A stretch of DNA of 30,339 bases. Origin: Novakomyces olei. Its lineage: Eukaryota; Ascomycota; Novakomycetes; Novakomycetales; Novakomycetaceae. Of this stretch, positions 3,404 to 27,440 are shown piece by piece. The translations under genes were made by a program, and so were the position numbers. Position 1 is the stretch's first letter; each line of letters begins with the position of its first letter. The notes beneath the pieces were generated by a model, which worked only from the letters and a program-made list of their open reading frames with translations, was not told the DNA's origin and searched no databases. Location: the NCBI GenBank assembly GCA_016906335.1, contig JADEYG010000013.1, positions 1 through 30,339 of the forward strand, given 5' to 3'.

Positions 3404-3765
3404 CTATACCATATTCCAGCGCGCATTACGGCCGCAAAATCAATAATTTGTTATGTGATATTATAGCCATTGGAAAATTGGACAGGGTTTTTCGGTTGAT
3501 TTTGCGGCGTATGCGGTCCAAAAAAATAAATAATGTATGAGGGGGGGGTCATCTAATTACCTTAACATACGCGCAAATTACGGCGTAATGTATATAAGAA
3601 ATGCAGTAGAACTTTGGTAGGGAGGGTTTTCAGAGACGGATTTTACTGCATATGCGCCTCAATGTATGGGAAAAAAGCGGCGGGTAGTTAAGGGGTAATT
3701 CACAGTGGGGCTATAAAAAGAGCGTCAATTGAAACAGGATTACAGCATAAATGTCAGGGCAGAGA
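3404..3765 (+). repeat. H element, divergent copy (hairpin plus G-run core)
   Basis: Starts with CTATACCATATTCC, like the other H copies. It keeps the core TAATGTATGAGGGGGGGG followed by TCAT at about 3530-3553, and the ATTACGGCGTAAT motif at about 3577-3590. Arm 1 (3553-3579) pairs imperfectly with arm 2 (about 3671-3701). Outside these parts the sequence differs strongly from the main copies at 17095 and 17710. It is followed by Q, as in the other modules. Confidence 0.7.
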
Positions 3766-4130
3766 ATGGCGGCAAGGGTAGGTTGTTGTATTTATATAAT
3801 ATATTTATTATACAAGATGTGCTACACATATTAAGTTATCTGATAATATAATATAAATATTATAGAGAGGGCAACATAGTAATAGAAGTAATAAGAAAAA
3901 CGTCAGAAAATAAGGAAAAATTAAGAGTTGTATCCCATGTGTAGAGGTGACAAAACGTCGAATGAACAATGTTTTTTACAAAAAGTGTATGGTTGGATAG
4001 AGGGAAGCAATAGGAGTGGTAAATATATGTTTGTTTTATAAATTGGATTATTAGTTATAAAGATATATGGGTTTAAAGATTATAAAAAGCTCAATGTATG
4101 GGCCAGGATGCATTTAATGTTGGCAATTAT
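3766..4130 (+). repeat. Q unit, copy 1
   Basis: AT-rich unit starting GGCGGCAAGGGTAGG. It shares long stretches with units at 17465, 18080 and 21857, including GAGGTGACAAAACGTCGAA and AGTGTATGGTTGGATAGAGG, and ends in GGATGCATTTAATGT. No coding potential seen. Confidence 0.8.
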
Positions 4131-4333
4131 AATAATGTATAATAATGTAGGGTATAATAATATATTGTATTATAATGTATGGAGAAATAATTATGGTATA
4201 GTAATATAGGTATTATAATGATTGTAAAAGTAGTGTATGGATAATAATGTATGGTATAATAATATATGTATTATAATGTATGTAAAGTAGTAGTATAATA
4301 ATGTTATGGTATAATAATATATTGATTATAATG
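4131..4333 (+). repeat. S minisatellite, left remnant of array 1
   Basis: Irregular TAATGTATGG/TAATATATGG units. The array is split here by the Copia element and resumes at 16475. Confidence 0.8.
4329..4333. repeat. Target-site duplication of the Copia element, left copy
   Basis: TAATG directly before the left LTR. The same five bases follow the right LTR at 16475-16479. Confidence 0.8.
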
Positions 4334-4561
4334 TGTGAATATAGAATTGGAATTTGCTCTTATGGTAGATTAAAATGATTAGATACTCTAGATTGCTTCA
4401 GCTGAATCCCCCCGAGGGTGTGAGGGTTCGCTGAGCTATATATATGTAACTATGTATTTTTGAGTGATATTCTGTAAAGCTAAAAGTCAAACAACTGACA
4501 CTCATGGTTGATTGTCTAGCCGGTCAGTGAGTCGGCGAGTGTATTATTATTATTATTATTA

Positions 4562-4630
<69 letters not shown>

Positions 4631-4657
4631 AGGGATAATAGATTCCATATTTTCAAA
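4334..4657 (-). repeat. Copia LTR (3' LTR in element orientation)
   Basis: About 324 bp, matching 16147-16474 along its length, with TG at the outer edge. Inner flank in element orientation is the purine-rich GCGGGAG, a likely short polypurine tract. It carries a (TTA)n microsatellite at 4542-4630. Confidence 0.88.
4542..4630. repeat. (TTA)n microsatellite inside Copia LTR
   Basis: Close to 29 trinucleotide units with one slip near 4565. The other LTR has a matching tract at 16363-16447. Confidence 0.95.
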
Positions 4658-6150: not shown

Positions 6151-7230
6151 GGCCCAGTGATTGCTTCATTGTAATTTTGAGCTCAATGTCAGGAGCTTCA
6201 ATTGATTAACGGCTCCTTTGGTCTGTTTAATATTTTCCTTGACCATTTTTAAGAAAAGGGGGGAAAGGATTTTCTTCAATTTTTTTTTCTTTGGAGATCC
6301 CTTCAAGATTTAATTTTTCTTCACCCAAGAAAGGATTTCCTGCAGCCGGGTCTATTTTTCTCTGAATTTTTCGTCTCCTAGTTGCTTCTGATGACGTTTT
6401 TCTTTTTCGCGCAGGTTGATTTCCTGGGCTGATAAGCTCTAGGGCTTGGTTCCTCTTCTATTTCAATTATAGAATTATTTTTGATTCAATGTTCTTAAAT
6501 TATTGTCAATTTCCATGTTTGATTGAGGGTCGTCACTTTCCTCATCGTCTGTATTTGATTTATTTCCCACTTGGCTCTGTTGAGTCTTCGATCGATCCTT
6601 TAGGTTGTCAGATGACTGATTTTCCTCAGAATTGGCTTGCGTGGGATTTTCAAATTTTTTAATATTAACGTATCATCAGCGGAAGTTTGGGGCGTTTCGA
6701 GAGTATTTGATAGACTATTTGGCGATTTGATTTGTTCAGTACCTTGTTTGACAGTTCACTACTTAGCTTTGGTAGATTGTCAATTATAGTGTGTTGATCC
6801 CTTGCTGGATGAGTTGTTCGTGGTCCCTTTTATTCTCCGTATCGGCTTCAGTATTATTTTGTATGTAAGTTCGCTGTATATTTGATTTCATTATAATCAG
6901 TAGCAGTGGAATATAATCTGTTCGTTTTCAAGGAATTTGACATTTCGAGATACGACTCTTTTCCCATTTTTTGAGATTGACAGTATGTAGCCTTTCTGTG
7001 TTTCAGAGTAGCCGATAAAAAGTATCATCTCCTCTTGTTCCACTTGGTTTTGTTATTGGCGTGCTTGTCCAGTGCTATTGCCAAGCAACCAAACACTTTC
7101 AGATGTCCAATTCGGAGGTCTTTTGTAATTGTTTCGTACGGAGTCTTTGGTGCTATTCTAGTTGGTAGTCGATTTTTCAGGTAGCAACTAGTGACCACAG
7201 CATCACTCAGAATTTATCGGACTTTGCGTG
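6151..7230 (-). pseudogene. Copia integrase C-terminal / linker to RT (fossil)
   Basis: Lies between the integrase core and the RT region, on the minus strand. It contains low-complexity acidic and serine-rich translated stretches, as is common between integrase and RT in Copia elements. Assigned mainly from position. Heavily broken. Confidence 0.5.
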
Positions 7231-7990
7231 CTAGTAGTAGGCTTCGTGCCTTCGATAATATGTTCGATTTGCGCGTTCCGCTACTCCATTGCTGTGGAGT
7301 GTAAGCGGTGCTAGTTTGGTGTATAATCCATGTTTTTTGCACAGTTCATGCATTTCGGCATTGATTATTCCAGACCGTTGTCTGTTCTTAATGTTTTTAT
7401 CATTTTTCCAAATTGTGTTTAACAAATGGAATTAACTCTGCGAAGATTTGGGTGACTTCATTTTTATTCTTCATCAATTTTATGAACGTGAAGCCCGACA
7501 GGTCTTCTATAAATGTAACGAATATTTGTAATTAAATCAGAATTTAGATGATAGGCCCGCACACGCGCTGTGCACCAGGTCAAATAGACCTGTTGGTCTG
7601 CTTCTCCCCGTATTGGGAAGGGTTCCCGATTATATTTGCTGTTGTACATGTATGACATGGTTCAATATCGTTGATTTTAATTAATTGTATTTCCCTGTGG
7701 CTTTTCCGTTATCAGCTCTAGCAGGTACTGTTTATTTGTGTGGCCTAGCCTTTCGTGCCACAGTTTTGCCTTTTCGGCACTATCTTCAGTAACAGAATTT
7801 GAAATGTATTCGTTATGATAGATTGGTTTTGCAGTGAAATAAATATATTATTATTTTTCTTGAGTCGCATAATTGGTTTTGCGTTGCTCATTAACGTTAA
7901 CTTAGATTCGGCAATTGTCATGGAATTTTTTCCCACTGAATGCCTGTAGAATGAGCGGATTGAATAAATTTGTGCCGTACTTAGGGGCAT
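7231..7990 (-). pseudogene. Copia integrase region (fossil)
   Basis: Minus-strand text at about 7240-7330 reads ELCKKHGLYTKLAPLTLHSN followed by GVAERANRT, the Copia integrase motif before the catalytic Glu. The segment at 7464-7660 (NREPFP) fits the GAG-pre-integrase/integrase zinc region. Broken. Confidence 0.8.
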
Positions 7991-8137
7991 ATAGACTTTG
8001 ATAGGATCAGCGTTGATCCCAGGTCATCCCTAACTTTTAAAATTATTGTTCCAATTCTGATACGGGAGAGCAATTGTCCTTCCCTGTTTGAATAGTAGAT
8101 CTGATTAATTTATTTTATTAAGTATTTGATATCTGAG

Positions 8138-8410
8138 CATATGTGACTAGTGGCCCCTGTATCGAGAATCCACTCAGTGATATCTCCAGGTGTCCCTTTG
8201 TTACCTAGTCACAGGATAGGCTCCATATTGTTAATCTTTACGTTATACACCGATTGTTTTTTTGAATTTTTGTATTCATGTTTCTCAATCTTTTGTCAAA
8301 TTCCATATATTCTGCAATTTTACAGTATCTTGCGTTTTTTCCCATTAGGATTCTTAAAGCAGTCATTTGTTTTTGTGGCCATCTTATCGCAGTAACCGCA
8401 TTTGTTAACA
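8138..8410 (-). pseudogene. Copia protease motif and gag zinc knuckle (fossil)
   Basis: Minus strand reads EWILDTGATSH at about 8140-8178, the aspartic protease motif of Copia polyproteins. KCGYCDKMATKTNDC, a zinc knuckle-like CX2C...C stretch, lies at about 8360-8408. The order knuckle then protease on the minus strand fits gag-pol. Confidence 0.75.
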
Positions 8411-8559
8411 GACTTTTTTAGACTGTCTCTCAGCCTTATCGCTATATCCATTGTTTCCACTTTTGAAATTTGATTTGATCTGTTTGATATGATAGGTAAT
8501 TCTTCTCCTCAACAGGAATATGGTGGCTCCATTTCCGAATAGGAATCTTATCCATTGTG

Positions 8560-9008
8560 TAATAAATTAGTTCATTATCGATAAGGTCAAGAGATCAAAT
8601 ACGTGGGTCTCCAGAATTATAGTGGAGCTCACGTTGTGTCGGATTGTATTTGCCATGTCGCGAGGTATTGCAGAAAGTATGCCGCAATAGGCAAAGTAGG
8701 TGAGTTCCGTGTAGCCGAGTCGAACTAAATTTACGATTTGTTTTCTGTATTCCGTAATAAAGTTTTCCGGGTCTCCATTCCATAGTTTCGACGGATTCAT
8801 AAATTTTATACAATGGATTCGGTCACTTGATGCTTTCTTTTTTCGAATTCGGTGTCCAGTAGTTCAATAGTTTTTGAGGGGTTTGAGCCCTTCGATTCGG
8901 GGTCCAAGAAGATCCCCACTTATTGCTTCGACTAGTTCAGCCGTGACTATTAGTGTGCTCACATTCGACACTGTAGTTGTGTCGACAGAATTGTCTAGCA
9001 CGATGAAG
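8560..9008 (-). pseudogene. Copia gag, middle/C-terminal part (fossil)
   Basis: Minus-strand text LWNGDPENFITEYRKQIVNL resembles a Copia gag (UBN2-like) domain. The reading is interrupted at 9008 by the nested Gypsy LTR; the N-terminal gag part lies on the far side at 15907-16130. Confidence 0.7.
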
Positions 9009-9710
9009 TGTAAGGTGGCCCTTAGAGGGGAGCACCGCGGTGTAAACTCGCGTGTCGCTACAGGCGAACACGGACTGTCCTTTGCGAGACCGCTCGACAA
9101 AGGAAGTTCAATGGGTACCGGCGGAAGCGAGTACCGAGAAACGGGAACGTAGACTTGCGCCCGGCGCAAGAACTAAGGAAAAGGAAAAGGACGTTGTCCC
9201 TTGAAAAGGCGACGGCGCTTCTCTAAGCTTACCTGCTACAAGGTTATGTAGCAACTTTGAGATTATAAGCCCGTGGAGAGAGTTCTCTCCATGGGCGACT
9301 ATGTAGACTATCCTATGAGGAATTAGCGGCTCGCTTAGCCACTTCCGGCCTAAGCCTCATCCCACCACGATCTCATGCGATGGTCCCAGACATCCGCATT
9401 GGGAAAGCGGTGGCGAGCTATGAACTCTATGGATCGATCTATCTAGCTTCGTAGCGATGCGCGATCGCTACTACTACTGTCATGCGCCGCGACGTGCCTA
9501 CGTCGGGCGGGCATGGACGTGGACCTGCTTCGCGCGAGCCAGGTCCAACCTGCTCGCGAGCTAGGCCACTTACGCGGCTTCGCGCGAGTAATGTCCAACA
9601 TTACTCGCGCGAGCTATTTAGATCTATCTAGCCTGAAGTCATCGCCTTTGGCGTACAGGACTTCAGGCGTCGTTCGCTGTCGTGGTTCACGCGAGGCGGG
9701 GATCATGACA
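9009..9710 (-). repeat. Gypsy A LTR (3' LTR in element orientation)
   Basis: Starts TGTAAGG and ends ATGACA. It matches 15202-15906 throughout, with about a dozen differences, nearly all single-base length changes. Very rich in perfect inverted repeats. Confidence 0.95.
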
Positions 9711-9724
9711 CTATCCCCCTTTTA
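9711..9724 (-). other. Gypsy A polypurine tract
   Basis: In element orientation the sequence is AAAAGGGGGATAG, directly against the TG of the 3' LTR. This is the expected primer site for plus-strand DNA and confirms the LTR edge. Confidence 0.85.
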
Positions 9725-9767
9725 GGGCGAGGTCTCCGCGCCTATGAAAACCACGTTAGCTACTAGA

Positions 9768-9827
9768 CTGCTATATAAGTGCGCTTTCGGCAAATAAACT
9801 ATCTAAGTAATATAAAGTAATCCGCGG
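9768..9827 (+). promoter_or_regulatory. Possible promoter of the antisense ORF in Gypsy A
   Basis: CTATATAAG, a good TATA-box match, lies at about 9770-9778, roughly 55 bp upstream of the ATG at 9828, on the strand opposite to gag-pol. Inference from spacing only. Confidence 0.45.
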
Positions 9828-10424
9828 ATGCAAAACAAGAATTTTCGCTCTGCGTTCCGGATCAACAACAACATGTCGCTTGTTCATGTCAGAGATGCTA
9901 TCGTGCCCTGCGAGTATTGCGTGGCAAACTCTTTGCCGTGCCGCTTCGTTCTCGGCACTGCACCGTTTGTGCGTCGCTGTATGGTCTGCGCGGCACGTCG
10001 TACCCGTTGCGAAGGAGGCCGTTTTCTTCATGACAATGAGGAGAACGAGCGCCTTGTTGCCGCGCGTGAAAAACAGCGTGTGAGAGAGCACGAGGAGCTG
10101 CAGCGTCGCCGCGAAAGACGTCGCGCGCGACAGCGAGCGCAGGAGGAAAGACGTCAGGCACCATTCGAGGTGCATGTAATTGCCGATGACGGTCCTCCGT
10201 CAACAAATTCGATCGTCGGTTCGGTTTCGAGTGCGCTGGCCCAGCGCGATGCGACTATCGCTCGCCTCGAGCGCCCGCAACCGTGCGTTGGAGCGCGAGA
10301 TTCTTTCGCTCCGTGCCGCTCGTCCGTAATTGTGTGCGTGACTCAACAGCCATTCCTCCTTGCGTTGTCCCATATTATTTGTTCGACAAGTATTGAATAT
10401 GTTTTTTGTATAGTTTTCTCGTAA
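9828..10424 (+). CDS. Antisense accessory ORF of Gypsy A: Zn2Cys6-like cluster and Arg-rich coiled coil
   Basis: A 198-residue ORF on the strand opposite to pol, between the chromodomain end and the 3' LTR. Cys28, 31, 38, 51, 54 and 61 follow the spacing CX2CX6CX12CX2CX6C, which falls within the Zn(II)2Cys6 binuclear cluster of fungal transcription factors. Residues about 70-125 are rich in Arg, Glu and Gln with heptad-like spacing and could form a basic coiled coil. A TATA-like box lies 55 bp upstream and AATAAA-like signals lie at about 10455-10470. It could be a DNA- or RNA-binding accessory protein of the element. The cluster assignment is from spacing; the basic residues typical between GAL4-type cysteines are only partly present. 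I know no named family for it. Confidence 0.6.
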   Translation: MQNKNFRSAFRINNNMSLVHVRDAIVPCEYCVANSLPCRFVLGTAPFVRRCMVCAARRTRCEGGRFLHDNEENERLVAAREKQRVREHEELQRRRERRRARQRAQEERRQAPFEVHVIADDGPPSTNSIVGSVSSALAQRDATIARLERPQPCVGARDSFAPCRSSVIVCVTQQPFLLALSHIICSTSIEYVFCIVFS

Positions 10425-10556
10425 TAATTTAAACAATAATAATCGCGGTATAATCAATAAATCAATAAATCACTTTAAGAGTTGAGTCTTAGTTTCGCGT
10501 GGGTGACGAAAGTTGAAGGTCGTCGCCCGAATAGGGAGCTCGCTTAGCATTCCCAT
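10425..10556. other. Spacer with convergent polyadenylation-like signals
   Basis: AT-rich stretch between the antisense ORF and the end of pol, with repeated AATCAATAAATCAATAAATC at about 10450-10472. It probably carries 3' ends for both converging transcripts. Confidence 0.4.
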
Positions 10557-13500
10557 TTAAGAACCAGGTTTGTTCGGGTGTGCACGGTGGAATTCGTTTA
10601 CCAAATCCATGCAGTTGTGTAAATGTTTCGCAGGCTCCCACGTGCGGTCGGAGGCGTCGTAGCCTTTCCAATGCACATAATATTGAAGTTGCTTGCGTCG
10701 GATGCGCGAGTCTAGAACTTGCTCGACTTCCCATTCCGGGTTAGCATCCAATATAACTGGCGGTGGTGGCGCGATCTGTTCTCGCGCGATCTGCGACACT
10801 GCGTTATGTCGCTCTAGCAATGAAGCGTGGAAGACAGGATGTATACGCATTGCCTTCGGTAGTTCCAAGCGATATGCACGCAAACCAACGCGTGCGATAA
10901 TCCTAAACGGTCCCAGCTTCTTGGCATCCAGCTTATCGCATGGCCGCGTAGTGCTAATATTTTTTCGCACTAGCCAGACTTGATCGCCAATAGCAAAACT
11001 TTTGTCGACGCGATGCTCATTTGCAAAGCGCGCCTGGGTCGCTGAGAGACTTTTTCGATTTCGACTTTCAATAAGCGATGTAGATTCCGTAGGTATTCGA
11101 TACGTTCATCCGCGGATGGGCATTGTCGCGAAGATGAAATCGTAAAGCGACATTTCGGGTTGTAGCCGTAAAAAGCGTAAAACGGTGTTGTCTTTGTAGA
11201 CGACTGCTCTGAATTGTTGTACGCGAATTGAGCAAAAGGTAACAAATTGACCCAATTGCTTTGCTGATAGTTGCTGTAGATCCTCAGATATTGCTCTAAG
11301 ATCTGGTTAAGCCTCTCTGTTTGGCCGTCGCTCTGTGGGTGGTACGCGGTAGACAACTTCTGCTGTATATCGCATTGCGAAAGCAAGTGTCGTGTAAACT
11401 GCGATACAAATACCGAACCCCTGTCAGAGACTATTTCGTCTGGTAGGCCATAGTTGGCAAATACGCGATGGGCGTAAATCAAAGCTAGCTCAGTAGCCTT
11501 AATAGATTCGCGTATTGGTATAAATATTCCGATTTTCGTAAATCGACAGGTGATTACCCATATGGAGTCGTAGGTTTTTTGTGTAATCGCATCGCGCGAC
11601 TCCGGTAATTTCACAATGAAGTCCATTGAGATACTTCCCAGGTCTCGCTGGTACTCTCAGTGGGTGTAGTAGTCCATACGGTGCATGTCGCGAAGGCTTG
11701 TTTCGCGCACAAGTATCGCACGACTCGACGTAGCTAAATATCTCTTTTCGCATGCGTGGCCAATAGTAGTTCGCATGACTAAGTCCAACGTTTTTGGCCT
11801 GGCCAGGGTGACCCGCGACATGCGAATCATGGCATGTCTGTAGTATAGCTAATCGCAAACGATTGTCGTTTGGGATGTATAGCAAACCCGAAAACGTTAG
11901 AAGACCCTTTTCGTTTATACTGTAGTTTCGCAGATGTTCCGACACTGGCTGCTTGCCGAGGTCCTCCATGACAACCTTGCAAGTCTTGTCTTTGCCGTAA
12001 CATTGTTTAATCTGATCATCAATGCCTGTATCTTCTACGGTCGCGAACAGGAAGTGCGATCTGTCCAATAGTGCCATAGTTCGCTCTGGTTTCTCCTGTT
12101 CCTTATCGCCGACATAATCGCTTCGCCTAGACAAGGCATCCGCTTTGTGATTTAGCTTTCCAGCACGGTATTCAATAACGAAATCATAGGAAGCGATCAA
12201 TTGCGACCATCGCATCTGTCTACGGCTAAGTACTCTTGCTGTAAGAAAGTACATGAGATTGCGGTGATCCGTATAAATTGTAGTGCGATGTAACGGACTC
12301 TCCAGGTAAACTCGCCATTCGCGAAGACATGCGACAATAGCTAACAGCTCTTTGTCGTAGATATCATAGTTTACTTCCGCGCTAGTCATTTTTCGCGAGT
12401 AGAACGCGATGGGTCTCATTTCGTCGCTGTTGTCTTTCTGCGAGAGAATCCCACCGATCGCGAAGTCCGATGCGTCGGTTTCCAAATAACTTGGCTTCTG
12501 CGGGTCGAAATGCGCAAGGATCGGCGCACCCAGAAAAGCGTTCTTCAGAGTTTGGAAAGAGTCAATGCACTCCTTGGAGAAATTAAACTGCGCATCCTTC
12601 TTCAGTAAGCGGGTGAGAGGGATGGTAATTTTGCTGTAGTTTGCAATAAATCTGCGATAGTAATTTGATAGGCCTAAGAACGACATAACGTCTTTCGCGT
12701 TCTTGGGTTCAGGCCATGTCTCAATAGAATCAACTTTCGCTTTCTCCATAGACACTCCTTTCGTAGAGACAACAAAGCCTAGGAACTCTGTCGTGTCTGT
12801 GTGGAACTCGCATTTCTCTAGTTTCACAAATAAGTTTGCTTTGCGAAGTCGTTTCAGTACTTCGCGAACATGCGTCACATGCTCCTCCTCGGTGTCCGAA
12901 TAGATCAAGATGTCGTCCAAGTATACAACAGCAAAGCGATCCAGACAATCGCGTAATGTGTCGTTCGCAAGAGCTTGGAAAGATGCCGGGGCGTTCGTGA
13001 GCCCGAAAGGCATAACCTGATATTCGTAATGTCCATAACGCGTACGGAAGGCGGTTTTCCACTCGTCGCCTTCGCGTATACGGACAAGATTATACGCGCC
13101 ACGGAGATCTAATCGCGTAAATATCGTCGACTGACGAATGCGATCCAATAGCTCCGATATGAGCGGCAGCGCATAGCGATTTTTGACAGTTACCGCGTTT
13201 AGCCCGCGATAATCTACGCACAGTCTCAGCGAACCGTCCTTCTTTTTCACAAAAAGAATTGGAGCCCCCGCGGGCGATGAAGACGGCCTAATGAATCCCT
13301 TCGCTAGATTGTCTTTAATGTAGTCGCGTAGTGTTTGTAGCTCGCGTTCGGCCAGAGGATATATAGGCCCGAACGGCGGCTTCGCGCCTTCTGTCAACGG
13401 TATTGCGTGATCCCACGCCTGATGCTGTGGTAGAATGTCTGCATTTCTTTTCTCAAAAAGATCGCGAAAGTCTGCATACTCGGGAGGTATAGCGACGTTT

Positions 13501-14039
13501 TTGTCCTCGCTTTTAGCGTCGGTCGCGTATACGCACAGCAATCCCGAGTCGTTGCCTCGCGATAGCTTAGCAAATTCCGTCGCACTGATTTGCGATGGTT
13601 CGTCTTGTGCCTCGGGCTTCTTAGGCAGTTTGCTAAGCAATAGGAAGACTCGAATTCGACTTTTGCACGTCTCCATGCAATCCTTGGCTCATGTTTGTCG
13701 AGCCATGGCTTTCCTAAAATAACGTCGTGTCCAGAGAGCGGTATCACGTTAAACATCATAGTCTCGCGATGTTCGCCTATGGTGACCTCCATGTTTTCAG
13801 TCTGGGAAGCGAACACCTCCGGTGCGAATCGCTCTTCCATCCACAACTCGTAGTGGCTCAATCTTCGCCTTCTTCGTTATATCGATTATGCTTCTCGTAG
13901 CAAGGCTCTGGCTGATAAAATTCGACGTCGCGCCTGAGTCGATCAGCGCCTTCGCGTCCAGCTGGCCCTTGCTAGTTCTCAAATTTGCAGTAACTGTGAG
14001 ATGTATTCCTCTGTCAGGTTCGGGTACCACTGACATCAC
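10557..14039 (-). pseudogene. Gypsy A pol: protease, RT, RNase H, integrase, chromodomain (fossil)
   Basis: Minus strand. Protease with DSGATSNFIS (about 13930-13970). RT with LDLRGAYN, MPFGLTNAP and catalytic YLDDILIYS (about 12890-12925). RNase H with ETDASDFAIGG (about 12450-12480). Integrase zinc domain HVAGHPGQ...CDTCARNK (about 11700-11810), integrase core with MDFIVKLPES, SDRGSVF and YHPQSDGQTERLN (11100-11626). C-terminal chromodomain EWEVEQVLDSRI...YYVHWKGY...TWEPAKHL (about 10585-10740), which in chromoviruses directs integration to marked chromatin. About four breaks; otherwise well preserved. Confidence 0.93.
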
Positions 14040-14083
14040 CTCCGAAAGCCTCGTGTCATTAACGCCCAGATCAGGCCTTTCTT

Positions 14084-16361: not shown

Positions 16362-16447
<86 letters not shown>

Positions 16448-16886: not shown

Positions 16887-17094
16887 CTAGATATATTCAA
16901 GACGGAATTATGGCGAAATTCCATTTTTATGTAATGTGATTCTTATTATGTATAATTCTAGTCAGGGTTTTCGCTTTTCCTTTACGCCATAATTCCATTT
17001 CGAAAAATAATTAATGTATGAGGGGGGGGTCATGCCAATTTCCTTAGCATTCCCGCGAATTATGGCGTAATTCTAATAAGAATGGTAGGAGAAA
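16887..17094 (+). repeat. H element, 5' part only
   Basis: Starts CTAGATATATTCAAGACGG. Carries the G-run core and arm 1 but stops after AATGGTAGGAGAAA, where the next H copy starts. Almost identical to 17095-17302. Confidence 0.85.
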
Positions 17095-17464
17095 CTAGAT
17101 ATATTCAAGACGGAATTATGGCGAAATTCCATTTTTATGTAATGCGATTCTTATTATGTATAATTCTAGTCAGGGTTTTCGCTTTTCCTTTACGCCATAA
17201 TTCCATTTCGAAAAATAATTAATGTATGAGGGGGGGGTCATGCCAATTTCCTTAGCATTCCCGCGAATTATGGCGTAATTCTAATAAGAATGGTAGGAGA
17301 AACGTGGAGGCAGGGTTTTTTAGGGAGAATTTTCCGACTAAATTCCAAATTATAATATGGGAAATTGCGCGGGAATGCTAAGGAAATTGGCATAAACGGG
17401 GGTAAGAACGACGTAAGAGCAAAAATAGTTTCCGCCTTAATTCCAAAACATTGGCAAACCATAT
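17095..17464 (+). repeat. H element, complete copy
   Basis: About 370 bp. Arms at 17240-17269 and 17363-17393 are inverted repeats of about 30 nt around a loop of about 93 nt. The core TAATGTATGAGGGGGGG precedes arm 1 directly. A second stem is formed by GGAATTATGGCG near the left end and CGCCATAATTCC about 80 bp later. Confidence 0.85.
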
Positions 17465-17709
17465 TGCGGCGAGGGTAGGGTTATTGAATTTATAAATATA
17501 ATTATTATACAAGATGGGCTACACATATTATAGTTATCTGATAATATAATATAAATATTATAGAGAGGGCAACATAGTAATAAAAGTATAATAAGAAAAA
17601 CGTGAGAAAAATAAGAAAAATTAAGAGTGTGTAGTCCATGTGTAGAGGTGACAAAACGTCGAATGAACAAGTGTTTTTACAAAAAGTGTATGGTTGGATA
17701 GAGGGGAGC
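17465..17709 (+). repeat. Q unit, copy 2 (right part missing)
   Basis: Same text as 18080-18320, cut at TTGGATAGAGGGGAGC by the next H element. Confidence 0.85.
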
Positions 17710-18079
17710 CTAGATATATTCAAACCGGAATTATGGCGAAATTCCATTTTTATGTAATGTGATTCTTATTATGTATAATTCTAGTCAGGGTTTTCGCTTT
17801 TCCTTTACGCCATAATTCCATTTCGAAAAATAATTAATGTATGAGGGGGGGGTCATGCCAATTTCCTTAGCATTCCCGCGAATTATGGCGTAATTCTAAT
17901 AAGAATGGTAGGAGAAACGTGGAGGCAGGGTTTTTTAGGGAGAATTTTCCGACTAAATTCCAAATTATAATATGGGAAATTGCGCGGGAATGCTAAGGAA
18001 ATTGGCATAAACGGGGGTAAGAACGACGTAAGAGCAAAAATAGTTTCCGCCTTAATTCCAAAACATTGGCAAACCATAT
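17710..18079 (+). repeat. H element, complete copy
   Basis: Nearly identical to 17095-17464. Arms at 17855-17884 and 17978-18007; G-run core at about 17838-17852. Confidence 0.88.
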
Positions 18080-18440
18080 TGCGGCGAGGGTAGGGTTGCT
18101 GAATTTATAAAATATAATTATTATACAAGATGGTCTACACATATTATAGCTATCTGATAATATAATAAAAATATTATAGAGAGAGCCCCATAGTAATAAA
18201 GTATAATAAGAAAAACGTCAGAAAAATAAGAAAAATTAAGAGTGTGTAGTCCATGTGTAGAGGTGACAAAACGTCGAATGAACAAGTGTTTTTACAAAAA
18301 GTGTATGGTTGGATAGAGGGGTGCAGTAGGAGTGTAAATATATACTTGTTTACAAGATTGGATTAGTAATTATGGAGATATATGGGTTTAAAGATTTATA
18401 AAAAGCTCATGACGGCGCAGGATGCATTTTATGTGGCATT
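18080..18440 (+). repeat. Q unit, copy 3
   Basis: Complete Q unit ending GACGGCGCAGGATGCATTTT, then the S array. Closest to copy 4 at 21857. Confidence 0.85.
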
Positions 18441-19626
18441 ATAATAATGTATAGTAGAATAATTTATTGTAAAGCAATGTATGTATAATAATGTATAGTA
18501 TAATAATGTATGGTAATTTAATGTATAGGAATAATGTATGTATAATAATGTATGGTATAATAATGTATGGTATAATAATATATGGTAGAATAATGTATTG
18601 TAAAGTTATTGTAAAGTAATGTATGTATAATAATGTATGGAGGAATAATGTATGGAGGAATAATGTATGTATAATAATGTGTGGTATAATAATATATGGT
18701 AAAATAATGTATTGTAAAGTGAATAATGTATGTATAATAATGTATGGTATAATAATGTATTGTAAAGTAAAGTATGTATAATAATGTATGTATAATAATG
18801 TATAGTATAATAATGTATAGTATAATAATGTATGGTATTATAATGTATTGTAAAGTAATGTATGTATAATAATATATGGAGGAATAATGTATAGAGGAAT
18901 AATGTATGTATAATAGTATGGTATAATAATGTATGGTATAATAATATATGGTAGAATAATGTATTGTAAAGTTATTGTAAAGTAATGTATGTATAATAAT
19001 GTATGGAGGAATAATGTATGGAGGAATAATGTATGTATAATAATGTGTGGTATAATAATATATGGTAAAATAATGTATTGTAAAGTGAATAATGTATGTA
19101 TAATAATGTATGGTATAATAATGTATTGTAAAGTAATGTATGTATAATAATGTATGGAGGAATAATGTATGGAGGAATAATGTATGTATAATAATGTGTG
19201 GTATAATAATATATAGTAAAATAATGTATTGTAAAGTAATGTATGTATAATAATATATGGTAGAATAATGTATGGAGGAATAATGTATGGTAAAGTAATG
19301 TATGTATAATAATGTATGGTAGAATAATATATGGCATTATAATGTATGGTATAATAATATATGGCATTATAATGTATGGTATTATAATATATGGTAGAAT
19401 AATGTATGGTAGAATAATGTATGGAGGAATAATGTATGGAGGAATAATGTATGGATGAATAATGTATGGATGAATAATGTATAGAGGAATAATGTATGGT
19501 AAATTAATGTATGGGCATTAATGTATGGAGGAATAATGTATGGATGAATAATGTATGGATGAATAATGTATAGAGGAATAATGTATGGTAAATTAATGTA
19601 TGGGCATTAATGTATGGGGGCATAAT
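18441..19626 (+). repeat. S minisatellite array 2 (15-bp monomers)
   Basis: Monomers such as TAATGTATGGTATAA, TAATGTATGGAGGAA, TAATATATGGTAGAA and TAATGTATTGTAAAG. The block 18539-18780 recurs from about 18905 with an offset of 366 bp, so a higher-order repeat exists. A shorter block around 19441 recurs near 19527. No gene. Confidence 0.92.
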
Positions 19627-19916
19627 GTATGAGATTTGTTCAGTTAGGGTTAGGGGTAATTATTGGGATAATGTATGTGGTATTATAATGTATGAGGAAG
19701 TTGTTTTATTAGGGTTAGGGTTGTTTATCAGGGAGTGGAGTAGAGAAATTTGTTGAGATTGTTGGATAAAGAAAAGGATGGAGAGAGTTGGAGTTGAGAT
19801 GGGAAATAGAAGTAGAAAATGGGAATAGATTTATGTAGATTTTGGCAAAAAAAAGGTTGAAAAAGGAGAGTAATTGAAAGAAAGATTGTGATAATATTGT
19901 ATAGTATGATATAGAG
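19627..19916 (+). repeat. P unit, copy 2
   Basis: Holds two telomere-like tracts (19643-19656 and 19709-19722) and the purine-rich segment, and ends ATTGTATAGTATGATATAGAG, where the Gypsy B LTR starts. Confidence 0.85.
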
Positions 19917-20257
19917 TGTGAGGGTAACTCACTGTTGTAACAAATAAATTAAAAGATAGAAAAAACTATGTTCTAAACTATGGGAAACCGTGTCCTTTTT
20001 ATAGACTCCTGTAATGGATTAATAATTCATTGTCCGAAAGCCCGAAATGGCGTGATTAATTATGAGTCAGCCTTGACTAATCATGAGTCAGCTTCCGCTA
20101 TGGCGTGATTAATTATTAATCAAATGCCGAGGTTCCAGATTTAATCCGTACACGTTTAGGACCCTTTGAGTAATTCAATGTTTAATTTTAATCCGTACAC
20201 GTTTAGGACCCTTTAAGTAATTCAATGTTTAATTATTTATTATCTACACTCCTAACA
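19917..20257 (-). repeat. Gypsy B 3' LTR
   Basis: 341 bp; in element orientation starts TGTTAGGAGTGTAG and ends in CTCACA. Contains an internal tandem duplication of about 50 bp around ATCCGTACACGTTTAGGACC (about 20140-20230), and two copies of ATGGCGTGATTAATTAT. Confidence 0.82.
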
Positions 20258-21483
20258 TCCTCCCCCACTAATTCGAGATGTGTCGAATTGTAGTTGTCAA
20301 GGAGTTGTCTGGAATGTAGTAGGTGTTGTTTTGGCTCCCATGTGTCTTCCTCAGGATTGTATCCTTCCCAGCGAACTCGGTAACGTAAGGTGTAGCCTTT
20401 TTTAGGTGTTGTAGACTTTTTGTCAGCTCTGAACCAAGCGTGGTCAACTATGCTTTGTATAGCATAAAGTTCTGTATTATCTTTATAGCGTCGCAAAGCT
20501 TTTGGTTTTGGTTGTTCACGTTCGTTCTGTTCAGTCATTGCATTGTGCTTTTTGAGTTGTGAGATATGAACAACTGAATGATATTTTAGATTTGTGGGTA
20601 GTTCCAGTTCATATGCCACTGGACTGACCTTTTCAACAATTTTGTATGGTCCAATGTATTTGGATTGAAGTTTTCTGGTCAAGTCATGTTGAAATAGTTC
20701 AGGTATTTCTCGAATGTTTGCAGTACTCAGGTATACATAGTCGTTGACTTCATATTCAATGTTGAGTCTGTTTTTGTCTGCATAAATCTTTGATAAGTCA
20801 TGTGCGGCTCTTATGGCATCTTGACAGAGTATTTGATTAGCTGCTAGAGTTTCAAGGAATGATGAATTGTCTTGACTTTGTGGAATAGATATTGCAAGAT
20901 CACTTAAGCTTCTTGGATTGTATCCTAGGTCAGCTTCAAATGGAGTCATCGAGATAGCAGAGTGTTTGCTTGAGGAATAGAAGAATTCTGCAAACGAAAG
21001 CAATTTGTGCCATGTGAAGTTGTTACGATTGGCATATGTAAATAGGCGTAGGTAATCTTCGAGAACCCTGTTTGTTCTTTCCGTTTGCCCATTTGTTTGT
21101 GGGTGATAGCTTGATGATGGTTTGAGTTTGACTTCAAGAACCTTTGTGAGTTGTGTCCAAAACTCTGACATAAACCTGACATCTCGGTCACTAATAATTA
21201 TTTTTGGTAGACCATGTAGGCAGAAATATCGATCCAAGAATAGAGCTGCTGTGCCTTCAGCGGTTATAGTTGTGTGTGTTGGCCAAAAATGTGCGCGTTT
21301 GGTGAGTCGGTCAACAATACAAATTATTGCATCGTATTTTTCCTTTCCAGATAAAGGAAGCCCAGTAATGAAATCCATTCCAATGGTTTCCCATCGAGCC
21401 TTTGGTATGTTCAGCTCTTGTAGTAAACCAATGGGCTTGTGAGGTGTAATTTTGCTCTTAGCACACGTCTCGCACGACTTCAC
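20233..21483 (-). CDS. Gypsy B integrase with chromodomain (partial pol)
   Basis: 416-residue open frame. Begins in the zinc domain with SCETCAKSKITPH, then the core with MDFITGLPLSG, DRDVRFMSEFW and YHPQTNGQTERTNR, ending with the catalytic Glu region. The C-terminal chromodomain reads YRVRWEGYNPEEDTWEPKQH. Its last codons overlap the LTR start. Upstream pol and gag are absent from the window. Confidence 0.93.
   Translation of the reverse strand: MKSCETCAKSKITPHKPIGLLQELNIPKARWETIGMDFITGLPLSGKEKYDAIICIVDRLTKRAHFWPTHTTITAEGTAALFLDRYFCLHGLPKIIISDRDVRFMSEFWTQLTKVLEVKLKPSSSYHPQTNGQTERTNRVLEDYLRLFTYANRNNFTWHKLLSFAEFFYSSSKHSAISMTPFEADLGYNPRSLSDLAISIPQSQDNSSFLETLAANQILCQDAIRAAHDLSKIYADKNRLNIEYEVNDYVYLSTANIREIPELFQHDLTRKLQSKYIGPYKIVEKVSPVAYELELPTNLKYHSVVHISQLKKHNAMTEQNEREQPKPKALRRYKDNTELYAIQSIVDHAWFRADKKSTTPKKGYTLRYRVRWEGYNPEEDTWEPKQHLLHSRQLLDNYNSTHLELVGEDVRSVDNK
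20258..20267 (-). other. Gypsy B polypurine tract
   Basis: Element orientation GGGGGAGGA directly before the LTR start TGTTAGG. Confirms the LTR edge. Confidence 0.85.
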
Positions 21484-21489
21484 ATAGTC

Positions 21490-21856
21490 CTAGATATATT
21501 CAAGACGGAATTATGGCGAAATTCCATTTTATGTAATGTGATTCTTATTATGTATAATTCTAGTCAGGGTTTCGCTTTTCCTTTACGCCATAATTCCATT
21601 TCGAAAATAATTAATGTATGAGGGGGGGGTCATGCCAATTTCCTTAGCATTCCCGCGAATTATGGCGTAATTCTAATAAGAATGGTAGGAGAAACGTGGA
21701 GGCAGGGTTTTTTAGGGAGAATTTTCCGACTAAATTCCAAATTATAATATGGGAAATTGCGCGGGAATGCTAAGGAAATTGGCATAAACGGGGGTAAGAA
21801 CGACGTAAGAGCAAAAATAGTTTCCGCCTTAATTCCAAAACATTGGCAAACCATAT
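21490..21856 (+). repeat. H element, complete copy
   Basis: Same left end CTAGATATATTCAAGACGG as the copies at 16887, 17095 and (one variant base pair) 17710. Arms at about 21632-21661 and 21755-21785. It directly abuts the broken Gypsy B integrase. Confidence 0.88.
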
Positions 21857-22215
21857 TGCGGCGAGGGTAGGGTTGCTGAATTTATAAAATAATTATACAA
21901 GATGGTCTACACATATTATAGCTATCTGATAATATAATAAAATATTATAAAGAGAGCCCCATAGTAATAAAGTATAATAAGAAAAACGTGAGAAAAATAT
22001 GAAAAATTAAGAGTGTGTAGTCCATGTGTAGAGGTGACAAAACGTCGAAAGAACAAGTGTTTTTACAAAAAGTGTATGGTTGGTTAGAGGGGAGCAGTAG
22101 GAGTGGAAATATATATTTGTTTACAAGATTGGAATGGAGTTATGGAGATATAAGGGTTTAAAGATTTATAAAAAGCTCATGACGGCGCAGGATGCATTTT
22201 ATGTGGCATTATAGT
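21857..22215 (+). repeat. Q unit, copy 4
   Basis: Complete Q unit, closest to copy 3, followed by S array 3. Confidence 0.85.
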
Positions 22216-22917
22216 AATGTATAGTAGAATAATTTATTGTAAAGTAATGTATGTATAATAATGTATAGTATAATAATTTATTGTAAAGTAATGTATGTAT
22301 AATAATGTATAGTATAATAATGTATAGTATAATAATGTATGGTATTATAATGTATTGTAAAGTAATGTAATATATGGAGGAATAATGTATAGAGGAATAA
22401 TGTATGTATAATAATGTATGGTATAATAATGTATTGTAAAGTATGTATAATAATGTATGGTATAATAATATATGGTAGAATAATGTATTGTAAAGTTATT
22501 GTAAAGTAATGTATGTATAATAATGTATGGAGGAATAATGTATGTAAATAATGTGTGGTATAATAATATATGGTAAAATAATGTATTGTAAAGTAATGTA
22601 GTATAATAATGTATGGTATAATAATATATGGTATTATAATGTATGGTATAATAACATATGGTATAATAATATATGGTATTATAATGTATGGTATAAGAAT
22701 GTATGGTAATTTAATGTATAGGAATAATGTATGTATAATAATGTATGGTATAATAATGTATGGAGGAATAATGTATGGATGAATAATGTATGGATGAATA
22801 ATGTATAGAGGAATAATGTATGGTAAATTAATGTATGGGGATTAATGTATGGAGGAATAATGTATAGGGATAATGTATGGTGTTAATATATAGTATTAAT
22901 GTATGGGGGCATAATGT
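22216..22917 (+). repeat. S minisatellite array 3
   Basis: Same 15-bp monomers as array 2, including part of the 366-bp higher-order block (about 22450-22590). Shorter than array 2. Confidence 0.9.
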
Positions 22918-23205
22918 ATGAGATTTGTTCAGTTAGGGTTAGGGTTAATTATTGGGATAATGTGTGGGGTATTATAATGTATGAGGAAGTTGTTTTATTA
23001 GGGTTAGGGTTATTTATCATGGAGTGGAGTAGAGAAATTGGTTGAGATTGTTGGATAAAGAAAAGGATGGAGAGAGTTGGAGTTGAGATGGGAAATAGAA
23101 GTAGAAAATGGGAATAGATTTATGTAGATTTTGGCAAAAAAAGGTTGAAAAAGGAGAGTAATTGGAAGAAAGATTGTGATAATATTGTATAGTAAGATAT
23201 AGAGT
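22918..23205 (+). repeat. P unit, copy 3
   Basis: Two telomere-like tracts (22932-22947 and 22998-23012), then the purine-rich segment, ending ATAGTAAGATATAGAGT at the Gypsy C LTR. Very similar to copy 2. Confidence 0.85.
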
Positions 23206-23760
23206 TGTCACGAGTGTGACATGGCCTTAAGTAAGACAGCGAATGCTGCATTACTTAAGGATAAGGACTATATAGTTTTATATAGTATTTCATAGCGATA
23301 GCACTAGGTAGTGCTATACAGCACCACCTTGTGCTATTACTTAGTTTCATAGAAGTCGTAGTGTATAAAAGGCTTCGCGGAAGACTTTTTACACTACGCA
23401 ATATCATAATGTTAGGGAGTCGCTATTTAGGCCGCTATGAACGGTTGATATAGCGACGAGTCTTATTCAACTTTCCAGTTTATTACTTTAATTTCTTTTA
23501 GTTATTTGTTTAATGTGGCTTAGATAGTTCTAGAATAGTTTTCTCATAGTTTAACCACAAGGGTCAAGCTTATAAATAGAGGCTTGTCTTCTACTTGTCC
23601 CTTGTGTGAAATCAATTTGGGTTACGCCTATACTTCGCGACTGTAGGCTCCTCAGTCTCCTTGTTGCAATAGTCACCGACAGTACTCTGGTTCGTCCCAT
23701 CTTCCTGCCTCCGCCCGCGCGATATCGGGCTAGTCCATCACCCAGGGTCACCCCCTAACA
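23206..23760 (+). repeat. Gypsy C 5' LTR
   Basis: 555 bp from TGTCACGAGTGTGACA to CCCCCTAACA. TATA-like boxes at about 23363 (TGTATAAAAGG) and 23571 (TTATAAATAGAGG). Several inverted repeats, for example CCTTAAGTAA...TTACTTAAGG at 23224-23259. No second LTR is present to confirm the edges. Confidence 0.75.
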
Positions 23761-23789
23761 GTATTTCACACCCGCGACGTGGCACCGAG

Positions 23790-24770
23790 ATGGAAGTCGA
23801 TCCAAACAACGAGATGTCGGCTACGATTCAACAAATCCTTAGGGATATGAGTTCTAGAATGCAAAACCTGGAACAGGAAAACCTTCAGTTACGAGGTCAT
23901 GTGATGGATTTGAGTTCAAGAACCAGTGGACACACTTCGAATTACCGGGAACCAAAGCTGGCTACACCGCCACTGTACCACGGAGAACGAGCGAAGACCA
24001 CGGAGTATCTTACGCAAATCAAAATGTACATCGACAGTCAACCGACGAGATTTACTACAGAGAGACAACAAGTTATGTTTGCTGCATCCTATTTGAGAGG
24101 CTCTGCATTTAGATGGTTTGAACCACATGTGAAGACAGACAACAGTATGATCCTAGACGACTTTGACGAATATTGTACGCAGTTAGAACGAATGTTCGGG
24201 AGACCGCAATATTCAGAGAACAGCGCAGAAACAGATACGTGAACTACGACAGAGACGATCAGTTGCACAGTATGCTGCAGAATTTAACCGCTTGCGTGCG
24301 TGGATCAATTGGAACAATGATCCATTGATATCACAGTTTTACGAAGGGTTAAAAGACGAAATGAAAGACGAATTGGCCAGAATGGATGAGCCAAACGACA
24401 TTGACAAACTCATTGACGAGTGTATTAAAATTGACAACAGACTATCAGAAAGAAAGGGGAACAACGGTCGTTTCCTAACCCATAGACCGCAACAACCAGT
24501 ATCGAGAGATAGGGGAGCTGTGCCCATGGACGTCGACATGGTACAAGCTCAGCCCGCAAAGAATGCCGCTTGGAACGGACATAATAACGGACAACAGAAT
24601 ATGGTCGCTCAATCAGTCGCTAAGAACAGAGGATTTAGCGGACACAATACGGACCCATCAGACAAGTATATGAGGGACGCATGAACATGCCCAAGATACA
24701 GTGCCAACGCTGCCATAAGTTAGGACACTATGCCAAGGATTGCCGAAGCACATTTCCGGCACGAGATATG
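23790..24770 (+). pseudogene. Gypsy C gag with zinc knuckle (fossil)
   Basis: N-terminal coiled coil (MQNLEQENLQLRGHV), then the gag domain with FAASYLRGSAFRWFEPHV, similar in layout to Gypsy A gag. Knuckle CQRCHKLGHYAKDC at about 24700-24745. Broken. Confidence 0.88.
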
Positions 24771-24898
24771 ACGAGAGAACGTCAAAATAACGCTTTAAGT
24801 TGGAGGAGACGATGGTCTACCAGTCTGAACATGATGAATTCAGTGAGAATGAAGACACTATGCCCCAACGAGTGGAGGTAAATGTGAAAATAGGAAAT

Positions 24899-27113
24899 GA
24901 GAGTTTTACGCTTTAGTTGACTCCGGCGCGAGCTCAAGCTTTATGCACTGGAAGCTAGCAGATAAGTTGAAGATCGAAACTGCTCCATTAAAGAATCCTA
25001 TTATTGTACGCGTGGCTGACGGGAGAACTATACGTTCACGTCAAGCAATTAAGCGAACCGACAGTTTGAACCTGAGTATCAATGGATACGAGACGGATAC
25101 AAGATTTTTAGTTGCCGAGATCGGAACAAATAACATGTTACTGGGAGTAGATTGGCTAGAAAGCACAACCCCATAATAATTGGAAGAAGGTACTATTGCA
25201 TGGGAGACGACCAGTAATACCTTCACGGAAACATCAATGAACACCGAATTTGAACCTCACACTGAGGAAGTAAGTGATTCAACAGACGATGAAAACATAA
25301 TTACATCTGCCAAAAACGAGGACGTTCTGGAATTGGACATTACAGAAGTTACCTCAACTGCAACCAAGATACCAGAAGAGTATCAGGAATTAAAGATGTA
25401 TTTGGCGAGCAAGAACAATTGGAACTACCGCCACACCCGCTCATACGATCACGAAATCGTACTAGAGAAAGATGCCAAGATCCCATTCGGACCAGTTTAT
25501 GGAACTACACCGAAAGAACAAGACTATCTACTAAAGTACTTGGAAGAAAACTTGCAATCAGGATTTATTCGAAAATCTAAAAGTCCTGCTGCATCACCTG
25601 TACTATTTGCACCGAAGAAAGACGGTGACCTTAGACTCTGTGTCGACTACAGAGCTTTAAACAAAGTTACAGTGAAGAACCGTTATCCTTTGCCGCGCAT
25701 TGATGGACTTATTGATAAGTTAGCGCAGGCCATCTACTTCACTAAACTAGATTTGCGAGGTGCATACAACCTCATCAGAATTAAGAAAGGAGACGAATGG
25801 AAAACAGCATTTCGTACTCGCTATGGATTATTTGAATATCGCGTAATGCCATTTGGACTTACAAATGCACCAGCGACGTTTCAAAATTTAATGAATGACA
25901 TATTTCGAGATATATTAGATGTCAAAGTTTTGGTTTATCTAGACGACATTCTAGTATATAGCAAGACCCTTGAGCAACACCTTCAGGATGTTCGCGAAGT
26001 ACTTTATCGCTTACGACAACACACTTTATATGTGAAACTAGAAAAATGTGAATTTCACAAAGCTACCGTTGAATTTCTAGGATATATCATATCAAAAGAT
26101 GGACTGTCAATGGCAAAATCGAAAACAGAGCCAATACAAAACTGGCCACAGCCAAAGAATGTCAAGACGTGCAAATTCTTTTAGGTTTCTGCAACTACTA
26201 TCGCCGCTTTATCCCGAATTTCTCGAAAATTGTATTACCAATAACTGAGTTACTCAAGCAAAAAACCGCATTCGCTTGGACCGGCCGCTCAGAGCGACGC
26301 TTTTAGCGACTTGAAGAAATCATTTCTAAAAAATGTTATGCTTGATCATATTGATAACAATTTGCAATGTGTCATTGAAACAGACGCTTCAGACTTTGCT
26401 TTAGGCGCCCTGTCTACGACAACAAAGCAAAGACAAACGACCTATCGCCTTCATTAGTAGAAAGCTACTACCAGCAGAGCTAATTACGACATTTACGACA
26501 AAGAACTTTTGTGTATCGTGTGGAGTTTACGCACATGGCGTCATTATTTACATGGCTCACCACATCCTATACTGATCTACAGTGATCACCAAAACCTACA
26601 AACGTTTACAACATCGAAAATACTCACCAGACGACAAGCCAGATGGGCTGAGATCTTAGCTGAGTTCGATTTTAACATTATTTATCGAAGAGGTCAATTA
26701 AACATACCTGCTGACGCATTGAGCCGCCGCTCCGACTTAGCAGATACTACGGATATTGAATATCAAAAGATACAATTGAAACCACTGCTTAAACAATCGC
26801 AGTTTATCGCAGTAAACACCGTTGAAGAAGGCAAACATTTGTGCCACCCGAGAATCGACAAGAGATTCTAGCAGCGTGTCATGATCACCCGCTATCTGGT
26901 CATTTAGGAATCAATAAAACCATTGAACTTGTCACCAGAAATTACTTTTGGCAGGGAATTCACCGCGACGTAAAGGAATACGTACAAGGCTGCACTACTT
27001 GCACCCGAAACAAGGTCCCCAGACATCGCCCTTATGGACTGCTAGTACCACTCTACGTTCCCGACCGCCTTGGAAGTCTATTTCTATTGACTTTATTGTT
27101 AAACTGCCTATTT
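24899..27113 (+). pseudogene. Gypsy C pol: protease, RT, RNase H, partial integrase (fossil)
   Basis: Protease DSGASSSFMH (about 24916-24945). RT with LDLRGAYNLI, MPFGLTNAP and YLDDILVYS (25180-26184). RNase H with ETDASDFALGA (about 26378-26412) and ADALSRRS (about 26712-26735). Integrase zinc domain HPLSGHLG...CTTCTRNK (about 26885-27015), then only the first residues of the core. Broken several times. Confidence 0.9.
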
Positions 27114-27440
27114 CTATACATATTCCTGCGCGAATTACGCCCGTAATTCGAAATATATGTATCGTAGTTTTTATTAGCTATATTTTTTGTTAGGGTGTTC
27201 TACGTAGAATTACGGCGTAATTCCAGTTTGAAAATTAATTAATGTATGGGAGGGGGGTCATGTGAATTTGCTGCTCGTCGTCGCGAATTACGGCGTAATT
27301 CTAATAAGAATTGAATAACAAATAGTAAACAGGGTTTTCGAGGGTAGATTTTACTGCATAATTCCAGGTTAATATATGGTAAAAATCGCGACGACGGAAA
27401 GGAAATTCACACTATTAATAATAAGATTCGCATTATATCG
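27114..27440 (+). repeat. H element, divergent copy next to the helicase gene
   Basis: Starts CTATACATATTCCTGCGCG, close to the copy at 3404. Core TAATGTATGGGAGGGGGGTCATG at about 27240-27262. Arms 27262-27289 and about 27383-27410 pair over most positions but have a different sequence from the main copies. AATTACGGCGTAATTC motif present twice (about 27218 and 27285). It cuts off the Gypsy C integrase and ends about 60 bp before the helicase ATG. Confidence 0.75.

Follow-up and report, generated by a model that had tools for sequence, protein, structure and literature searches.

The Y' elements of Saccharomyces carry a helicase, adjoin the telomere and occur in long and short forms; they lie between telomere repeats and have multiplied chiefly through recombination, and Ty1 can reportedly mobilise them in telomerase-negative survivors, a finding attributed to Maxwell et al. 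2004. An N-terminus of the OrsD/DUF3505 type is a feature of telomere-linked helicases (TLHs), and recombination is the only explanation known to us for the presence of TLH genes at many fungal chromosome ends. The available portions of recent reports describe both TLH regions and telomeric retrotransposons in fungi (PMC12857005, PMC8381367, PMC7473861), and the accessible part of one of them gives subtelomeric RecQ helicases no domain beyond the helicase core (PMC7473861), so OrsD may not be a defining feature of TLHs. Here we analyse a 30,339-nucleotide stretch of Novakomyces olei DNA (the window, contig JADEYG010000013.1, C13 in our numbering), which is one of 15 contigs in a genome of 14.3 Mb. 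It carries six copies of a hairpin repeat, H, which is the proximal ~300 bp of a TLH element, and the junctions of this element point, as far as the compared sequences tell, to its attachment onto chromosome ends from a defined terminus.

The original prediction, made from the window alone, described H as a family of repeats whose left ends are fixed, whose core contains a G-run and whose hairpin arms have changed in a compensatory way, and the genome-wide analysis bears this out. The six predicted starts were each correct to the base, and the copies fall into three subtypes, A, B and C, which are 68-73% identical over their first ~294-298 bases. In the following list P1 and P2 are the two stems considered below.

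3404-3703, forward strand: H module of subtype B, beginning CTATAC(C)ATATTC; P1 3419-3441 with 3498-3516, core 3531-3552, P2 3552-3575 with 3678-3703.
16887-17094, forward strand: H module, subtype A, ending after 209 bp at the next copy and so without arm 2; P1 16903-16915 with 16985-16996, core 17012-17033, P2 arm 1 only, 17033-17057.
17095-17709, forward strand: subtype A element, ending after 614 bp; P1 17111-17123 with 17193-17204, core 17220-17241, P2 17241-17265 with 17368-17392.
17710-19917, forward strand: short subtype A element without helicase gene, H module 17710-18007 and then a minisatellite block; P1 17726-17738 with 17808-17819, core 17835-17856, P2 17856-17880 with 17983-18007.
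21490-23208, forward strand: short subtype A element, H module 21490-21784 and then a minisatellite block; P1 21506-21518 with 21586-21597, core 21612-21633, P2 21633-21657 with 21760-21784.
27114-27410, forward strand: H module, subtype C; P1 27132-27149 with 27207-27223, core 27240-27261, P2 27262-27285 with 27387-27410.

The 17-base core TAATGTATGAGGGGGGG occurs 42 times genome-wide (27 forward, 15 reverse), and read backwards it has no occurrence in the whole-genome search. The motif ATTAYGSCGTAATNY has 111 genome matches (63 + 48) against one for its control, and those of the listed places that were compared by eye coincide with H copies. DNA searches of the genome with one query copy each, whose counts are lower bounds, gave at least 42 rows of subtype A (identity of at least 89%, with the ~30-base inverted matches of arm to arm excluded) and at least 11 of subtype C, and nine left ends of subtype B, one of them a 27-base stub, lie in the DNA examined. 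Copies are found at 17 of 30 contig ends, among which those of the short contigs C8, C10, C13 and C14 are included, always within ~40 kb and with the G-run strand reading towards the contig end or telomere, and they are not confined to one duplicated block. Outside this zone only one copy at C4:1362 kb and two at C7:1835-1836 kb, arranged head to head, were found. By DNA comparison the window and the right end of C12 are largely one and the same chromosome end: a stretch of 16,926 bp is 99.4% identical (3 mismatches, 103 gap positions) and another of 10,756 bp is 96.1% identical (43 mismatches, 375 gaps). Since the differences are mostly indels, including several single-base indels in the 3404 copy, C13 is probably an unpolished duplicate of C12; four subtype A rows and one subtype C row in C13 duplicate rows of C12, and the two contigs were counted as one in the flank counts.

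Evidence for a defined terminus comes from the left ends. All of the subtype A and C rows begin at base 1, with no left-truncated copy among these at least 42 and at least 11 rows; the pattern search for left ends requires an intact left end, and truncated ends would be expected in the genome DNA searches instead. The 59 left ends are preceded by 20-base flanks that form 41 groups at up to three edits (44 by mismatches alone), and 24 of the 41 flanks have an uninterrupted relative in the DNA examined, to which the following tests also apply and in which some contig ends contain gaps. The continuation of the target in the relative matches the first bases of the element (C, CT, CTA and so on) by at least one base in 23 of 24 junctions, at least two in 18 and at least three in seven; the match lengths in the best relative were 0 (one junction), 1 (five), 2 (eleven), 3 (six) and 5 (one), with other relatives of a few junctions giving different lengths. 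Random positions in the same flanks gave means of 3.57, 1.00 and 0.26 of 24 for the three thresholds, and maxima of 12, 6 and 4 over 20,000 draws. The base before the joint is C in 18, T in 14, A in six and G in three of the 41 groups, so that 32 have a pyrimidine, as would be expected if a template carried one more G. The constant first base and the one to three matching letters suggest a copied molecule that stops at this point and whose last letters pair with the chromosome end.

Beyond the junction there is usually the element in place of the former sequence, followed by telomere or a further element, and in 21 of 39 junction rows the target continuation is absent downstream. On C3 an element directly follows 18 bases of interstitial telomere repeat (the sequence examined extends 21 bases beyond), and degenerate telomere tracts are buried in the arrays of C4 and C15. 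The element thus has a constant proximal and a variable distal end at chromosome ends, as elements that attach to ends do. The left flank of the 21490 copy is the end of a Ty3 integrase/chromodomain frame (20233-21483, reverse strand). The internal copy at C4:1362 kb, which has a truncated right end, lies between TAGTTCGT to the left and TAGTTCGC to the right, giving a target duplication of 7-8 bases, TAGTTCG(T/C), and the target reads CTATA like the element; this single structure is what target-primed reverse transcription would leave. A second candidate duplication, at a subtype B copy of C15/C14 with a shared GTTGA, was dropped, its right flank resembling by eye the start of a Ty3 long terminal repeat (LTR), TGTTGAATATAGAAGG.

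These junctions bear directly on the view that subtelomeric recombination, such as break-induced replication between homologous ends, spread a block of sequence of which the constant left edge is merely the border. Many copies are 99-100% identical between chromosome ends, duplicative capture is described in the accessible part of a report on Pyricularia (PMC8381367), and the C4R 13854 junction has a longer near match, CTACACATATT against CTATACATATT. Recombination surely moves copies between ends afterwards, but it leaves unexplained both why 41 different flanks all meet the element at one identical base and why they mostly have 1-3 bases in common with it, and we hold it highly improbable as the origin of the junctions. 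The main rival is a route through DNA, in which the element is cut precisely at its left end by a nuclease or recombinase, possibly where an extruded hairpin has its base, and the telomere-bearing fragment is end-joined to a broken chromosome through 1-3 matching bases. Matches of this length are also typical of end joining, and the complete subtype A element of C9 continues into telomere repeats. End joining, however, usually trims both partners, and the absence of any left-truncated copy from the rows counted above is not what such trimming would leave; one case of filler was seen (at C2L), the sole internal insertion (C4:1362 kb) has a target duplication, and the required sequence-specific nuclease is unsupported by the present analysis. 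The stems described below are nearly pure Watson-Crick, which suits cruciform DNA, and with both sides weighed we consider this route possible but unlikely.

The original prediction took H for a stand-alone hairpin element; this was not borne out, as H forms the inner edge of an element that encodes an OrsD domain and a RecQ-like helicase. Two features of the window belong here.

27500-30263, forward strand: TLH gene of the subtype C element; the OrsD piece, 27500-27916, is open, and the rest is frame-broken and meets the telomere repeats.
30274-30339, forward strand: terminal telomere tract of GGGTTAGTTA-like repeats, at the contig end.

The C12 counterpart of this gene is a single open frame of 931 aa (OrsD and the start of DEAD) followed by telomere repeats, and the frame breaks in the window may be assembly errors. 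In subtype C the ATG of the OrsD and helicase protein lies 386 bases past the left end, and the subtype A gene found at the right-hand end of C9 begins ~2.2 kb in, with a frame of 308 aa and then an open stretch of 1063 aa. There the order is OrsD, then DEAD and Helicase_C, the latter two both over cut-off; the best solved relatives of the helicase are BLM/RecQ, and a RecQ zinc-binding match reaches 20.6 of 25 bits, below its cut-off. A RecQ-like helicase gene is thus present in telomere-adjacent copies. The OrsD/DUF3505-type N-terminus is found as well, with PF12013 over cut-off at 10 places in a six-frame search of the genome; searched as protein, OrsD scored 34.0 and 27.9 bits in subtype C and 23.6 in subtype A, the last under the cut-off of 26.6. 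OrsD ends of the gene lie at contig ends of C1, C3, C4, C9, C12, C13 and C15. The complete subtype A element on C9 (1644703-1653258, 8,556 bp) ends in telomere repeats at the contig end; across contig ends, the window included, the repeat is mostly GGGTTAGTTA, with GGGTTAGTCA and TTAGGG variants, and we know of no other fungus with a 10-base telomere unit of the GGGTTAGTTA type; a literature search on the repeat brought up nothing relevant.

Overlapping matches point to direct-repeat blocks of ~1.3-1.5 kb on either side of the gene, and short forms lack the gene. On C9 two similar blocks lie on either side of the helicase gene, at element positions ~372-1636 and 6739-8280, and recombination between them would explain the short elements. 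Mapped on three references, the right ends vary widely (for example 189, 209, 455, 485, 614, 958, 1354, 1514, 1873 and ~2157 bp) and often fall at base 1 of the next element or at telomere repeats. Near base ~485 of subtype C, telomere repeats follow at the left end of C2 (L004 ~144-629) and a new element at the left end of C3 (L005 ~1635); this common base could be a shared former chromosome end or a break hotspot.

The terminus itself is folded. Folds computed separately for A, B and C have 28 common pairs in two stems, P1 (columns 18-29 with 99-110) and P2 (columns 147-171 with 275-299). P1, to the left of the core, the third arm pair given by subtype B at 3404 and a potential helix between the left end and the TAATGTATG core (P0) all go beyond the original prediction, as does the helicase gene. 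P0 appears when A and C are folded, with a two-base shift of register between them, and it is without covariation support because it shows no two-sided change. The predicted agreement of the arms within each subtype held for the 27114 copy (GTGAATTTGCTGCTCGTCGTCGCG / CGCGACGACGGAAAGGAAATTCAC) and the 17710 copy (TGCCAATTTCCTTAGCATTCCCGCG / CGCGGGAATGCTAAGGAAATTGGCA), but the match is imperfect in subtype C and the 16887 copy has no arm 2. Folding energies lie at z -3.69 to -7.65 relative to dinucleotide shuffles for the three subtypes on both strands, with none of 200 shuffles as good as the real fold in each of six folds. In ten copies and 44 pairs, on an alignment made without regard to the structure, pairing holds in 91.9% of 431 cells (83.1% in shuffles), 41 cells carry two-sided changes (16.9 in shuffles) and the covariation score is 0.229 (0.083 in shuffles), values reached in each case by none of 500 shuffles; 12 of the 44 pairs had changed on both sides with pairing kept, against an average of 9.4 in shuffles. 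Related sequences can outscore shuffles without any structure, and a control that preserves relatedness, in which the partner was slid by 1-3 columns, left 32-46% paired and 1-3 two-sided pairs. Covariation thus clearly exceeds chance relative to the slid register, and relative to shuffles on most measures, the number of pair types being the exception, and it rests effectively on three diverged lineages.

Of the two earlier suggestions, that the structure is selected or that it is regenerated, the first fits better. The old internal C7 copy shows a changed arm 1 beside an unchanged arm 2, and decay is seen in the C10 copy; the arms are therefore not simply copy-correcting each other, and regeneration fits less well. 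Both loops keep an AGGGT(T) block across the three subtypes (e.g. window 17787-17792 and 17927-17932): loop 1 has AGGGT as its longest unvarying stretch, and AGGGTTTT is among the two longest of loop 2. Subtype C reads AGGGTG in loop 1, and the block is otherwise the telomere-like AGGGTT. At the gathering score Rfam has no match in the window, and a permissive search gave only hits far below threshold, the best being MIR5512 with 29 of 139 bits (E 0.0021).

Taking junctions, element and fold together, we give about an even chance to a mechanism in which the TLH element is joined to broken or eroded chromosome ends from its defined terminus through RNA-templated priming. RNA would be the simplest template of that kind. 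The element would be transcribed antisense, in the direction of the centromere, into an RNA whose 3' terminus (...UAUAG-3' or ...CUAG-3') coincides with the left end and is fixed by the P1/P0 hairpin. Where an exposed chromosomal 3' strand finishes in C, CT or CTA, it would pair with the last 1-3 bases of this RNA, and a reverse transcriptase (RT) would extend it into a copy with a fixed proximal and a variable distal end that telomerase could then cap. Telomerase would be the natural candidate for the RT, with the abundant Ty3 enzyme as an alternative, and the TLH gene would ride along and might help. A candidate for the telomerase RT (TERT) lies at C1:1477374-1478913. The RVT_1 hits number 85, of which 75 have a Ty3-type RNase H within 600 bp, one is the TERT candidate and two are on C6; telomerase thus appears to be the only non-LTR RT identified among the hits examined. 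A narrower version, that an RT-less mobile element heals ends because its structured antisense RNA pairs through 1-3 bases at the 3' end and is copied by the cell's own telomerase, is possible and is put forward tentatively; the conserved AGGGT(T) of both stem-loops may be a telomerase docking site, and the whole could act as an RNA-templated back-up cap carrying a helicase gene.

The same RVT_1 hits bear on the suggestion that H is the tail of an ordinary LINE- or SINE-type retroposon whose partner RT was missed, attachment to ends being incidental. An invariant RNA 3' end, a variable 5' end and the one target duplication would suit this, as would the seven RT fragments that no RNase H hit follows. 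With 75 of the 85 hits linked to Ty3, one a TERT candidate and two on C6, and with all copies found but those at C4:1362 kb and the C7 pair lying within ~40 kb of a contig end, such a retroposon seems decidedly improbable. Classical transposition would need an unseen transposase or rolling-circle enzyme, with the logic of Helitrons, Cryptons or IS200-like elements, acting on the hairpin terminus, the right end being lost by later breaks. The fixed structured terminus, the short shared target letters and the subterminal hairpins are all in keeping with this, and the reverse-strand end of subtype A, ...CTAG, resembles a Helitron 3' end. Helitrons have TC...CTRR ends, insert between A and T and encode a Rep/Helicase. 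However, subtypes B and C end in ...TATAG and not in CTRR, the flanking bases counted above (C 18, T 14, A 6, G 3 of 41) do not keep strictly to an A|T site, OrsD and the RecQ-like helicase make up the long non-repeat frames of the complete C9 element, and no second fixed end was found, so that we regard classical transposition as improbable. A Helitron in particular was rejected on its B and C ends, its varied flanking bases and the C9 frames, and a terminal-inverted-repeat transposon or MITE on the internal position of the arms, the homologous sequence to the left of arm 1 and the variable right end.

Several observations weigh against RNA-templated priming. The antisense RNA is predicted from sequence, and the gene of the element lies on the strand opposite to the proposed template. 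No RT was found encoded in the element, the complete 8,556-bp C9 element containing no RVT_1 hit, and seven of the 85 RVT_1 fragments, each scoring at least 80 bits, lack a following RNase H hit and may include a LINE. The window copy at 17710 (C12R 18727) is the one junction without a match, although three of its 35 relatives give one base, and the C2L junction, which lies outside the 24 because of two extra T between flank and element, departs from direct joining. In 18 of 39 junction rows the target continuation is found downstream; in those rows the target is element-derived sequence carried by the new or a later copy itself. The target duplication at C4:1362 kb is a single case with one mismatch. 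As to the fold, 13 of 500 shuffles reach 12 two-sided pairs, and the 15 pair types compare with 17.0 in shuffles, 468 of 500 of which reach that number. Wobble pairs are nearly absent from P1 and P2, with one U-G pair type and two A-C cells that would read G-U on the other strand, and a comparison of wobble pairs is about equal for both strands; because of this near absence the pairing does not tell the strands apart, and pairing at the level of DNA is equally possible.

Other features of these regions were noted in passing. At C7:1835181-1836456 (piece L024 882-2157), deep inside the largest contig examined, two decayed subtype A copies face each other with a mirror-image left flank and odd AT-rich sequence between them, and on its sequence the pair looks like the scar of an end-to-end chromosome fusion. 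Pieces of Ty3-type retrotransposons, one with a chromodomain, lie among the subtelomeric elements (window 9000-16000 and 20233-27000), and window 879-2960 holds pieces of a urea carboxylase/amidolyase-like gene (CT_A_B, CT_C_D and a biotinyl domain) in separate frames, through introns or indels. Database searches with proteins of this genome yielded no close relative with a name, the best hit reaching 56% identity, and among nine named hits for one transporter six come from basidiomycetes.

Like the Y' elements of Saccharomyces, the H/TLH element bears a helicase, adjoins telomeres and has long and short forms, in contrast to which its proximal joint is a fixed, non-telomeric terminus. With Athena Penelope-like elements and terminons, HeT-A and TART it shares addition at exposed ends and 5'-truncated copies, as far as the available text of the source describes them (PMC5537684); Athena and terminons contain an RT, whereas none was found in the H/TLH element. 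MoTeR and FoTeR are likewise fungal chromosome-end elements with truncated copies, and FoTeRs co-occur with TLH genes in Fusarium, according to the accessible portion of PMC12857005. FoTeRs encode an RT and sit in telomere repeats, whereas H, in which no RT was found, attaches at C, CT or CTA in varied sequence. The closest likeness is to the TLH genes and regions of other fungi, which are multi-copy and subtelomeric, carry a RecQ-like helicase near telomere repeats and are often truncated, in those parts of the reports that could be consulted (PMC12857005, PMC7473861). No description of a folded terminus or of a junction rule for TLH elements was found in the literature searched, which was mostly open-access and in part available only as excerpts. 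Unlike those regions, the element described here has a defined, folded and covarying proximal terminus, which joins dozens of unrelated flanks at one base, mostly with matches of 1-3 bases. Its junctions record dozens of events, and the combination of a defined folded terminus with a base-matching rule makes the mechanism testable; if true, RNA-templated attachment would connect the helicase elements of subtelomeres both to retroelements that attach to chromosome ends and to the healing of telomeres.

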